Below, piece by piece: positions 34,868 through 62,213 of a stretch of DNA of 64,000 bases. The translations under genes and the position numbers were made by a program. The notes under the pieces are model-generated. The model did not search any database. It worked only from the letters and a program-made list of their open reading frames with translations, and was not told the DNA's origin. Source of the stretch: Cyanobacteriota bacterium. GTDB taxonomy: Bacteria > Cyanobacteriota > Cyanobacteriia > CACIAM-69d. The first letter of the stretch is position 1; each line of letters starts with the position of its first letter. The stretch is from assembly GCA_022402445.1 (NCBI GenBank), contig JAKRSF010000004.1, positions 381,876 through 445,875 of the forward strand, given 5' to 3'.

Positions 34868-34958
34868 TCTGAAGCATCCCTAAGGACGGTTGCCCCGCCG
34901 GGGTTCTGGTGGAGGGCAGCCCGTCGTTTTTATAAGACATTCCGGCTTTTACAAATCA

Positions 34959-35711
34959 ATGGCAGCAGACACCGATCGCTCTCGCGGAAAGATTCTCATT
35001 GTCGATGACGAGTCCGCCCTGCGCCTGATTTTGACCACGCGCCTCGCCTTGGCGGGGTATGAGGTGGTGGCGGCGGCGGATGGGGAGGAGGCCCTGGAGG
35101 CGTACCAACGGGAATCGCCGGATTTGATTGTGCTGGATGTGATGATGCCGAAGCTCGACGGCTATGGCGTCTGCAAGGCGGTGCGTCAGGATTCGGATGT
35201 GCCGATTATTATGCTGACGGCCCTGGGGGATGTGGGCGATCGCATCACGGGGTTGCAGATGGGGGCGGATGATTATTTATCAAAACCGTTTTCGCCGAAG
35301 GAGTTGGAGGCGCGCATTGCCTGTGTGCTGCGGCGGGTGCGTGATCGCCTACCGAGTTCGACGCCGGAGGCTGATCGCATCCAGATCGGCAGTTTGCAGA
35401 TTGATATGCGCAAGCGGCAGGTCTATCGTCAGGATCGCCGCATTCGCCTGACCCACACGGAATTCAGTTTGCTGGAGCTGCTGTTCAACCGGCGCGGGGA
35501 GGCGGTGGCGCGGGCGGAGATTTTGCAAACCCTCTGGGGCTATGCGCCTCGGGTGCAGTCGGATATGCGGGTGGTGGATGTGCATGTGGCGCGGCTGCGC
35601 TCCAAGCTGGAGGATGATCCGCGCAATCCTGAAATCATCCTGACGGTGCGGGGGACGGGCTATGCGGCTCCTCGGCTGGCGCTGGAGCCGTCGGAGGCGA
35701 TCGGGGCCTAG
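34959..35711 (+). CDS. rpaB: OmpR-type response regulator RpaB
   Basis: 250 residues from MAADTDRSRGKILIVDDES; an earlier in-frame ATG at 34890 is unlikely. Receiver: acidic pair VDDE, phospho-acceptor Asp60 in IVLDVMMPKLDGYGVCKAVR, Thr in MLTALGDVGDRITGLQMGADDYLSKPFSPKEL. Winged-helix output: LTHTEFSLLELLFNRRGE, then VVDVHVARLRSKLEDDPRNPEIILTVRGTGY. The length of the inter-domain linker and these segments match RpaB/Ycf27, which binds HLR1 sites to control high-light and photosystem genes and works with the NblS kinase. nblS is not in the window. Confidence 0.85.
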   Translation: MAADTDRSRGKILIVDDESALRLILTTRLALAGYEVVAAADGEEALEAYQRESPDLIVLDVMMPKLDGYGVCKAVRQDSDVPIIMLTALGDVGDRITGLQMGADDYLSKPFSPKELEARIACVLRRVRDRLPSSTPEADRIQIGSLQIDMRKRQVYRQDRRIRLTHTEFSLLELLFNRRGEAVARAEILQTLWGYAPRVQSDMRVVDVHVARLRSKLEDDPRNPEIILTVRGTGYAAPRLALEPSEAIGA

Positions 35712-58451: not shown

Positions 58452-58988
58452 TTACGCCTTCGCTTCCTTCAGGTAAGCCAGCATCGTATCGGCATCCGAC
58501 ACCTCGAACGGGTCGGTGGGGCAGTTGTCGCCGTACTCGGGCTCGACGAACATCTTCTCGATCGCGCCGTCGCTGACCACCATCGAGTAGCGCCAGGACC
58601 GCATCCCGAAGCCCAGGTTGGTCTTCTCCACCAGCATCCCCATCTTGCGGGTGAACTCCCCGTTGCCATCCGGCAGCAGGAACACCTTTTCGGCACCCTG
58701 CTGTTTGCCCCACTGGAACATCACGAAGGCATCGTTCACGGAGATGCAGATCACCGCATCCACCCCCTGGGCGAGGATTTCATCGTAGAGCTCCTCATAG
58801 CGGGGCAGGTGGGTCGAAGAGCAGGTGGGCGTGAACGCGCCGGGCAGCGAAAACACCACCACCCGCTTGCCACCAAACAGTTCCGCCGTGGTCACATCTT
58901 GCCAGCGGAACGGGTTCGGCCCTTCAACGGACTCGTCACGAACACGGGTCTTAAACGTAACGTCGGGCACTCGCGTAATAGCTGCCAT
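58452..58988 (-). CDS. Type II (Prx5-like) peroxiredoxin
   Basis: About 178 residues from [18 protein letters not shown]. Peroxidatic Cys56 in [18 protein letters not shown], then [18 protein letters not shown], and the C-terminal [20 protein letters not shown]. It removes H2O2 and alkyl peroxides with thiol reductants, here probably glutathione/glutaredoxin or thioredoxin. It is divergent from the PerR-like gene across a 377-base gap, so it may be a PerR target. Confidence 0.93.
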
Positions 58989-59193
58989 ACCTGAATATCC
59001 TCCGGATCGCCGGGGCGATCGCGCTAACGATGGTTGAACGGTGGGCATTTGGCCTCCCGAGGGAAGCCTGAACGGAAAATCACGAAAAATTTGGCCCAAG
59101 TCGCCATTCCCGCCCCGCCACACTCTCCCGCACGCCCCAACGCTCGGTGGGGGCACTGGGCAGGCGGACCGGTGAACTTGACTGGCTCGCTTC

Positions 59194-59365: not shown

Positions 59366-59803
59366 ATGGTACAGGCAAGGGTTGGGGCAGAGGCGGTGGT
59401 GCAAACCCTGAAGGCGAGGGGCCTGCGGGTGACGCCCCAGCGCTGCGCCGTGTATGCGAATTTGTTGCGGCGGACGGACCATCCGACGGTGGAGCAGATT
59501 TTGAATGATCTGAACCGGGAGTTGCCGGTGTCGTCGAAGGCGACGGTTTACAGTTCGCTTCAGGCCCTGCGGGATGTGGGGCTGGTGCGGGAGGTGCTGC
59601 TCCAGGAGGGGGTGTCGCGCTATGACGCGAAGGTGGAGCCGCACCATCATTTCCTGTGCGATCGCTGTGGGGCGATCCATGATTTGCCGTGGGCTCAGTT
59701 TGGTGAGTTGTCCCTGTCGGTGCTGCCCCAGGGGTTGCGGGGGGTGGCCTATGAGGTGACGGTGCGCGGCACCTGCGGCGACTGCGGGGGGATGGAGGCT
59801 TAG
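59366..59803 (+). CDS. perR: Fur family regulator, probably PerR
   Basis: 145 residues. Winged helix with RGLRVTPQRCAVYANLLR and SSKATVYSSLQALRDVGLV, then HHHFLCDRCGAIHDL for the regulatory metal site, and structural zinc cysteines C98-C101 and C137-C140. The absence of Fur-type iron-uptake genes and the divergent peroxiredoxin favour PerR over Fur or Zur. Its stop codon overlaps the stop of the convergent kinase gene. Confidence 0.85.
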   Translation: MVQARVGAEAVVQTLKARGLRVTPQRCAVYANLLRRTDHPTVEQILNDLNRELPVSSKATVYSSLQALRDVGLVREVLLQEGVSRYDAKVEPHHHFLCDRCGAIHDLPWAQFGELSLSVLPQGLRGVAYEVTVRGTCGDCGGMEA

Positions 59804-61209
59804 GCGATCGCGGATTGGGTGGCGGGCTGGTGGGTTGCGGGGGCGATCGCGGGGGGCTGGGCCACGCGGGGCAGTTCCACAACGAAGGTTGTCCCCTGGC
59901 CGACCGCAGACGCGCAGGTGAGCCGTCCGCCGTGTTTGGTTTCCACCACGTCGTAGCTAATGGACATGCCGAGGCCGGTGCCCTTGCCGACGGGTTTGGT
60001 GGTGAAGAAGGGGTCAAAAATACATTTTTGGATCTCGGGGGGAATGCCGGGGCCGTTGTCGGCGATGGTGATGCGGATGCGATCGCCGGGGGCCGTTTCG
60101 ATCCTCAGATCAATGCGGCTGGGGTTGCGGTGGCAGTCCTCGGGCGATCGCGTGGTGTCCCGTTCCTCCAGGGCATCGATCGCATTAACCAGAAGGTTCA
60201 TGAACACCTGATTCATGGGGCCAGGGTAGCCAATGATTTGAGGGATCTCTCCATAGCTTTTGGTGACCACAATGCCCGGTCGATCCAGTTGCGGCTTGAG
60301 GCGATTTCGCAAAATAGAAAGGGTGCTTTCAAGGCCATCCTGGAGGCAGTAGGGCACGACTTTTTGATCGTCGGTGCGGCTGAAGATCCGCAAGGAATTC
60401 ACGATGTTGCAAATCCGCTCCGCCCCGCCCCGCATCGATGCCAGCAGTTTCGGAAAATCCTCCTCCAGAAAATCTAGGTCCGTATTTTCCAACAGTTCCT
60501 GAAGGTCATAGTCCGGCTGGGGCACGCGATCGCGGTAGGCTTCCACCACCTGCAAAAGCTGTTCCGCATAGATCTTGGCATGGGCCAAATTGCCATAGAT
60601 GAAATTCACCGGATTATTAATTTCATGGGCCACCCCCGCCACCAACTGCCCCAGGCTCGATAGTTTTTCCGTTTGAATCAATTGCAGTTGCGCCCGCTGC
60701 AAATCCTGAAGGGTCTGTTCAAGGCAGGCGTTCTGGGCATGGAGGGCCGCCTCGATTGACCGCCGCTCCTCAATTTCCATGGTCAGGGCCTGGTTGAGCT
60801 GCTCCAGTTCATCGGGACTCCGCAGGGCCAGGGCCTGGGGCACCACGGGCACCGCCGTCGCCGCCGTGGCAACGGACACCAGGGCTGTGGCCCCCTTGAG
60901 CACACCCGCGCTCCAGTAGTTGGGGTGCCACAGGGTCCAAATTTCCATTACGTGCGTGAGGCCGCACAGGACAATAAATGCGCCAAACAGGGCAAACAGT
61001 CCCTTGAAGGGCAGGTCGCGGCGGCGCAGGGCAAAGTACAGCAGCGTCGCGGGAATCGAAAAATAGGCCAGGGCCGTGAGGGCATCGGCGGCAATATGTA
61101 AACCCACCAGGGGTGTTTGCCACAGGTAACAATGGCCGTGGGGAATGTAGCCTAAGGGTGCGATCGCATCGGCCCCCACCGACGCGATCGAGAACGGAGA
61201 ATGTAGCAT
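59800..61209 (-). CDS. Histidine kinase with ethylene-receptor-like sensor domain
   Basis: 469 residues. Three N-terminal helices contain [23 protein letters not shown] and [20 protein letters not shown]. The residues that bind copper and ethylene in ETR1 (D25, Y32, I35, P36, C65, H69) correspond to D42, Y49, I52, P53, C82, H86 with identical spacing. A fourth helix region and a coiled coil (about 130-190) follow, then HisKA ([17 protein letters not shown], His phospho-site) and HATPase ([28 protein letters not shown]). There is no GAF or receiver domain. The sensed ligand is inferred. Confidence 0.92.
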
Positions 61210-61493: not shown

Positions 61494-62213
61494 TTAATGG
61501 AGTGGGTGATGTTGAGCGGTTTCGGGCGTGGGGGGTGCGGCTGGGGCGGACGGGCGGGGGTATAGGTGAGTCAGGCGCAATAATACCGTCTGGAAATCCG
61601 CCAGGATGGCGCGGCGGTTGGTGGCGGTGAGGGGCGGTACGTGGATGAAGAGGGGCGGCGGGGCGATGGGTGGGGGCTTTGCCCCGATGGGTGGGGGCTT
61701 TGCCCCGATCGCGGGGGGATGGCGGTGGTAATCGGCCAGCAGGGCGGCGTAGAGGCCATTGCAGACGAAGGTGCCTGCGTCATCGCTAGGGATGGTGGTC
61801 GGTAGGTTCCGGCAGAGGTCGGCGATGGGGAAGGGGCTCGTGAAAACCTGATCGCCTTGGCGGCCGTGCCATTCGAGGGTGAGGTGCGATCGCCCTTCCG
61901 CCATGCCGCAGGCCACGATCGCCCAGGGATGGTATTGCGCGATCGCGCGGCGCACGGTGGCAGGGGCCGCCTCGAACGAGACCGGCAGGTTCCGCAGTAG
62001 AATGCAATGGCCCAGCCCTGGGGTGCGATCGCCCGATTTCTGCCGCGCCAAACCCTGCCCTGCCAAGGCCCGATGGGTTGTGAGATCCTGGAGCGCCCGC
62101 AGCAGATCATCAGACGCATTGGAGCGCTGGTGGGGTAGCCAGGTCTGAAACGAGGTCAGCAGCAGGGGCGGCGGCTTGGGGGTGGACGCCGTGGGTGGAT
62201 CGGCCATGACCAT
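61494..62213 (-). CDS. Pyroglutamyl-peptidase (C15)-like protein
   Basis: 239 residues. Triad candidates in the expected order: Glu106 (ACGMAEGR), Cys151 (DAGTFVCNGLYAAL) and His191 (LFIHVPPL). The N-terminus LLLTSFQTWLPHQRSNASDDLL matches the C15 fold. A proline-rich insert between the Cys and His contains two identical IGAKPPP units from a 21-base DNA duplication. Divergent from hisH with only 23 bases between the starts. Confidence 0.82.
   Translation of the reverse strand: MVMADPPTASTPKPPPLLLTSFQTWLPHQRSNASDDLLRALQDLTTHRALAGQGLARQKSGDRTPGLGHCILLRNLPVSFEAAPATVRRAIAQYHPWAIVACGMAEGRSHLTLEWHGRQGDQVFTSPFPIADLCRNLPTTIPSDDAGTFVCNGLYAALLADYHRHPPAIGAKPPPIGAKPPPIAPPPLFIHVPPLTATNRRAILADFQTVLLRLTHLYPRPSAPAAPPTPETAQHHPLH
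61665..61706 (-). repeat. In-frame 21-base tandem repeat in the C15-like gene
   Basis: Two exact copies of a 21-base unit (61665-61685 and 61686-61706) encode IGAKPPP twice. A partial third copy follows. Confidence 0.95.

Follow-up and report, generated by a model that had tools for sequence, protein, structure and literature searches.

Does the minus-strand gene at positions 59800 to 61209 of the window (the whole stretch of 64,000 nucleotides analysed here) encode a genuine ethylene sensor, and if so, how can its signal reach the cell with so little between sensor and kinase? An earlier note on this DNA had read the gene as a histidine kinase without GAF, PAS or receiver domain. Coordinates and domains proved right when compared with Pfam, and the gene can be divided in the following way:

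59800 to 61209, minus strand: histidine kinase gene with an ethylene-binding domain (EBD), 469 aa, ATG to TAA.
60823 to 61110, minus strand: ethylene-binding domain ETR1_N (PF25487), residues 34 to 129, from Pfam, the alignment with ETR1 and the AlphaFold2 model.
60628 to 60822, minus strand: linker, residues 130 to 194, without Pfam domain and predicted by the model to be a helical rod leading from TM3 to the kinase.
60583 to 60654, minus strand: HisKA match, residues 186 to 209, with the phospho-acceptor H195 in HEINNP (codon 60625 to 60627).
59866 to 60219, minus strand: HATPase_c catalytic domain, residues 331 to 448, from Pfam and motifs.

The ETR1_N match is strong (E=3.8e-39, 133.3 bits, for a gathering cut-off of 27 bits) and runs from position 2 to position 97 of the 97 of the profile. 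The HisKA match is partial, and the motifs of the kinase are intact: HEINNP with H195, N338, DNGPGIP at 384-390 (G1), FDPFFTT at 398-404 (F) and GKGTGLGM at 408-415 (G2). No GAF, PAS, phytochrome or receiver domain was found by Pfam in the whole 469 aa; in the layout of plant receptors and of the SynEtr1 type, by contrast, EBD and kinase are separated by a GAF, PAS or phytochrome domain. NCBIfam returned kinase models only, none of which reached its cut-off; T2SS_HK, matching the kinase half, scored best. Around the gene, a scan for promoters and terminators gave sites no more numerous than in shuffled sequences.

We aligned the N-terminal part with Arabidopsis ETR1, and by both profile and alignment the matched residues are homologous to those of ETR1. 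Thirty-eight of 92 residues of the EBD are identical, and seven binding residues correspond at a constant offset of 17: D25 to D42, Y32 to Y49, I35 to I52, P36 to P53, I62 to I79, C65 to C82 and H69 to H86. The signalling lysine K91 of ETR1 aligns with K105, past a gap of three residues. The ETR1 sequence served for the residue numbering. Each of the seven positions is conserved in 87 to 93 of the 97 rows of an EBD alignment which takes in ETR1, the window protein and its paralogues. On sequence grounds, the window EBD is homologous to the ETR1 domain and the residue match is far beyond chance, because the profile is matched over its whole length while none of 14 control genomes contains PF25487.

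These seven residues are reported to be necessary for ethylene binding to ETR1 (PMC6682694, PMC11819568). The note had presented six of them (D42, Y49, I52, P53, C82 and H86) as a complete set of copper/ethylene ligands. The six and their offset are confirmed, and the seventh, I79, had been missed; all are indeed required for binding, but only C65 and H69 are credited with a role in copper coordination, D25 having a supporting role (PMC11819568) and the remaining residues being needed without a demonstrated ligand role (PMC6682694, PMC11819568). In Synechocystis SynEtr1 and Azospirillum AzoEtr1 all seven are present and ethylene is bound, and SynEtr1 loses this binding when the cysteine of its copper site is mutated (PMC6682694, PMC11819568). 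By analogy with these proteins, the window protein very probably does sense ethylene.

Hence we favour, with good confidence, the reading in which it is an orphan membrane receptor-type histidine kinase for ethylene, with Cu(I), whose response regulator is encoded at another place of the genome. In a transmembrane domain of three helices, C82 and H86 would hold the Cu(I) that binds ethylene, and D42, Y49, I52, P53 and I79 would support the copper site. Binding would shift TM3, and the shift would be passed on to the DHp helix by a dimeric helical rod without interruption (residues ~132-228), changing the autophosphorylation of H195 and hence phosphotransfer to that unlinked regulator. For copper, ethylene, dimerisation, the direction and sign of the signal and the output, we rely here on homology to tested receptors.

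The AlphaFold2 model (a monomer built with 25 sequences, mean pLDDT 79, pTM 0.50) predicts three helices of transmembrane length, at 32-62, 69-94 and 98-127, followed by a single unbroken helix, 132-228, which spans the linker together with the first helix of the DHp domain and carries H195. The best 50 matches of this model in Foldseek are all kinase structures, and a sequence search for a solved structure covering the EBD sensor gave nothing beyond chance matches to light-harvesting peptides. For a rigid coiled coil one expects linker lengths to cluster with a period of 3.5 residues. Eight distinct lengths from homologues of the HExNNP kinase type (45, 66, 73, 77, 91, 98, 112 and 130) do concentrate at this period (R=0.835, Rayleigh p~0.004, n=8), these being few lengths from one homologous group with several periods tried. 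The signal is weaker at 3.6 (p~0.015) and absent at the other periods tried, and linkers of another kinase class have no signal at 3.5. This gives modest support to a continuous rigid coiled coil carrying the signal.

As to the partner, receiver domains are matched 89 times in the genome. The one closest to the kinase, in a protein with a receiver and a Trans_reg_C domain at window positions 34884-35708, lies ~24.5 kb away, and no candidate cognate regulator is found by proximity within 24 kb of the gene. The locus is therefore not a canonical two-component pair, with its adjacent regulator gene. Most homologues with a short linker are also devoid of a receiver gene in the flanks of a few kb that were fetched, which means that the partner is presumably encoded elsewhere, unlinked.

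The immediate neighbours of the gene are of another kind:

59366 to 59803, plus strand: Fur-family regulator, PerR-like, convergent with the kinase gene, the 3' ends overlapping by 4 bp.
58455 to 59156, minus strand: redoxin gene, beyond the Fur gene.

The earlier note had remarked that the kinase sits beside a peroxide-response pair, and Fur-family and redoxin genes are indeed next door (among NCBIfam models the Fur protein matches PerR best, at a score far below the cut-off). The functional link that this hinted at is not supported. The kinase and Fur genes are convergent and so share no transcript, and no Fur or peroxiredoxin gene lies near any other locus fetched that encodes an EBD kinase. 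When 17-19 kb around the two closest homologues, those of the genomes G377 and G036, were compared with window positions 52-64 kb, only the kinase itself matched. In G001, a genome of the window's own family, the Fur homologue and the EBD kinase are on different contigs, and no redoxin gene occurs within ~1.5 kb flanks of the Fur homologues of G001 and G003. As these neighbours are not conserved beside the homologues, a connection of the kinase with the peroxide response is unsupported. On the other side, upstream of the kinase gene, the minus-strand gene at 61497-62213 has only a partial match to Peptidase_C15 (pyroglutamyl-peptidase) over 47 residues; a relative adjoins a hisH-like gene in L078.

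The copper site could also be kept for another purpose, the physiological signal being copper, redox state or a small unsaturated gas other than ethylene, and ethylene binding being incidental. Copper coordination by C and H is intrinsic to the EBD site, peroxide-related genes adjoin the kinase gene, and EBDs occur in many cyanobacteria (PF25487 is present in 73 of the 291 genomes sampled in the phylum and in 50 of 115 genera), of which few have been tested for a response to ethylene. Nevertheless the residues D, Y, I, P and I, which ETR1 requires for ethylene, are kept besides C and H, the bacterial homologues that were tested do respond to ethylene (PMC6682694, PMC11819568), and the peroxide neighbours are not conserved. 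We regard this alternative as rather unlikely.

Another possibility is that the EBD is inactive and serves as a membrane anchor, the kinase being constitutive or driven by a partner protein. The window genome has two further ETR1_N matches, both fused to GGDEF (diguanylate cyclase), of which the second speaks for this possibility:

859 to 1920 of locus L002 (G000:C8:147155-147439), minus strand: EBD fused directly to GGDEF, set of seven residues intact.
1393 to 2376 of locus L003, plus strand: EBD-GGDEF protein, a degenerate paralogue whose ligand positions read HCLPLLQ.

The L003 sensor has lost its ligand residues, which shows that loss of sensing occurs in the lineage of the window. The window kinase, however, keeps all seven residues and the lysine, and the seven are also kept in its sister clade (G377 and G036), so that an inactive anchor appears very improbable. 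That kinase, Fur and peroxiredoxin form one sensor unit for the peroxide response is hardly credible: the genes are immediately adjacent in the window genome, but their orientation precludes a shared transcript, no other EBD kinase locus fetched has them, G377 and G036 share the kinase only, and G001 has its Fur homologue and its kinase on separate contigs.

The proteins encoded by L002 and L003 are 40% identical over 306 aa. A further EBD-GGDEF protein in G314 (L160) is similar to that of L002 and has an intact-looking sensor, and two genomes of the same family as the window, G001 (L145) and G003 (L144), have GGDEF proteins with sensors that diverge in a way similar to L003. The loss of ligand residues in L003 may therefore be old and retained. 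Returning to the orphan ethylene receptor that we favour, one can tentatively imagine a minimal ethylene network, which we hold to be possible but doubtful: the orphan EBD kinase and the intact EBD-GGDEF protein would wire the same gas to a phosphorelay and to c-di-GMP, while the paralogue without ligands, with its relatives in the family, would read something else or be uncoupled.

The earlier note stressed that the sensor is joined almost directly to the kinase, unlike in plant receptors and Synechocystis Etr1. The layout is as it described, but its exceptional status is not: at least 20 colinear, near-full-length homologues (45-58% identity, four families) were found in 17 other genomes of the 390 sampled, a lower bound as the class-wide search with the whole protein scored four candidates per genome. 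The layout occurs, among others, in Stenomitos rutilans, Nostoc parmelioides, Nostoc sp. CHAB 5715 and 5844, a Leptolyngbyaceae MAG and Phormidium tenue, and Pfam confirmed EBD-HisKA-HATPase_c without any other input domain in five loci (L057, L058, L060, L062 and L178). In 36 of the 95 rows of our EBD tree (94 gathered EBDs and ETR1, not a random sample) only a linker of 44-130 residues stands ahead of the H-box of the kinase. We accordingly rejected the idea of a unique layout, since EBD, linker and kinase recur in this order in several families of cyanobacteria, with Nostoc, Leptolyngbyaceae, Stenomitos and Phormidium among the carriers. Bacterial EBD proteins range from simple to complex outputs, as already reviewed (PMC7700396). 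The layout is of a known type, widespread in cyanobacteria, to which the window protein adds one more member.

Among the nearest known systems, plant receptors (ETR1 and ERS1) have a GAF domain, and ETR1 a receiver too, and they signal largely via CTR1. SynEtr1 of Synechocystis (slr1212, also UirS or PixA) is likewise a cyanobacterial histidine kinase with an N-terminal EBD and the essential residues (PMC6682694), but it has a cyanobacteriochrome between the two and signals via slr1213 and slr1214, whereas the window kinase has a helical linker only and no linked regulator. GeiEtr1 and GeiEtr2 of Geitlerinema, which binds ethylene, are EBD kinases with all seven residues (PMC6682694); unlike the window kinase, the former has a GAF domain and the latter PAS, GAF and receiver domains. 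AzoEtr1 is, like ours, a short EBD kinase, and its residues 1-130 bind ethylene (PMC11819568), but it contains a PAS domain, and the gene of a response regulator lies next to its own. Direct homologues of the EBD kinase are the proteins of L057, L058, L060 and L062 (from Nostoc, Stenomitos, Leptolyngbyaceae and Phormidium) and of G377 and G036, which consist of EBD, helical linker, HisKA and HATPase_c only and are 48-55% identical to the window protein over almost their full length. Their neighbouring genes differ, and the linker has 45 residues in L057 and L060 and 98 in L058, compared to 66 in the window protein. The window kinase is thus among the simplest layouts of ethylene receptor: a binding domain and a kinase whose motifs are complete, with a helical rod to join them. 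It could serve as a compact model of how ethylene at Cu(I) changes kinase activity, for which the multi-domain receptors of the plant or phytochrome type are harder material; its value is that of a tractable model, the receptor type itself being widespread.

In the EBD tree, the window protein groups with G377 and G036 in a supported clade (SH-aLRT 99); these two belong to another family of the same class. The EBDs of the window and of G377 are 75% identical, and all three proteins have the linker of 66 residues. The EBD kinase of G001, with a linker of 77 residues, is placed elsewhere in the tree despite coming from the window's own family; this placement may reflect horizontal transfer or differential loss. 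The tree is otherwise weakly resolved (of its 92 inner branches, built on 111 columns, 46 are unresolved, and the branch of ETR1 is long), so that we used only the clade of the window, G377 and G036. Placing ETR1 and tracing the loss of GAF with the same tree was dropped, for want of columns and resolution and because of the long branch of ETR1.

Finally, we must note some other arrangements of EBD genes. In G152, an EBD protein of ~212 aa (L163, 4315-4950) has no kinase or GGDEF domain that we could find. Four loci (L061, L147, L151 and L171) carry tandem EBD genes, a direct EBD kinase with a linker of 112 residues and then a large EBD protein that includes a receiver and in L061 has the order GAF-PAS-GAF-HK-REC. 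L147 is cut at the end of the locus; in L061, L151 and L171 a further receiver gene follows the tandem pair.
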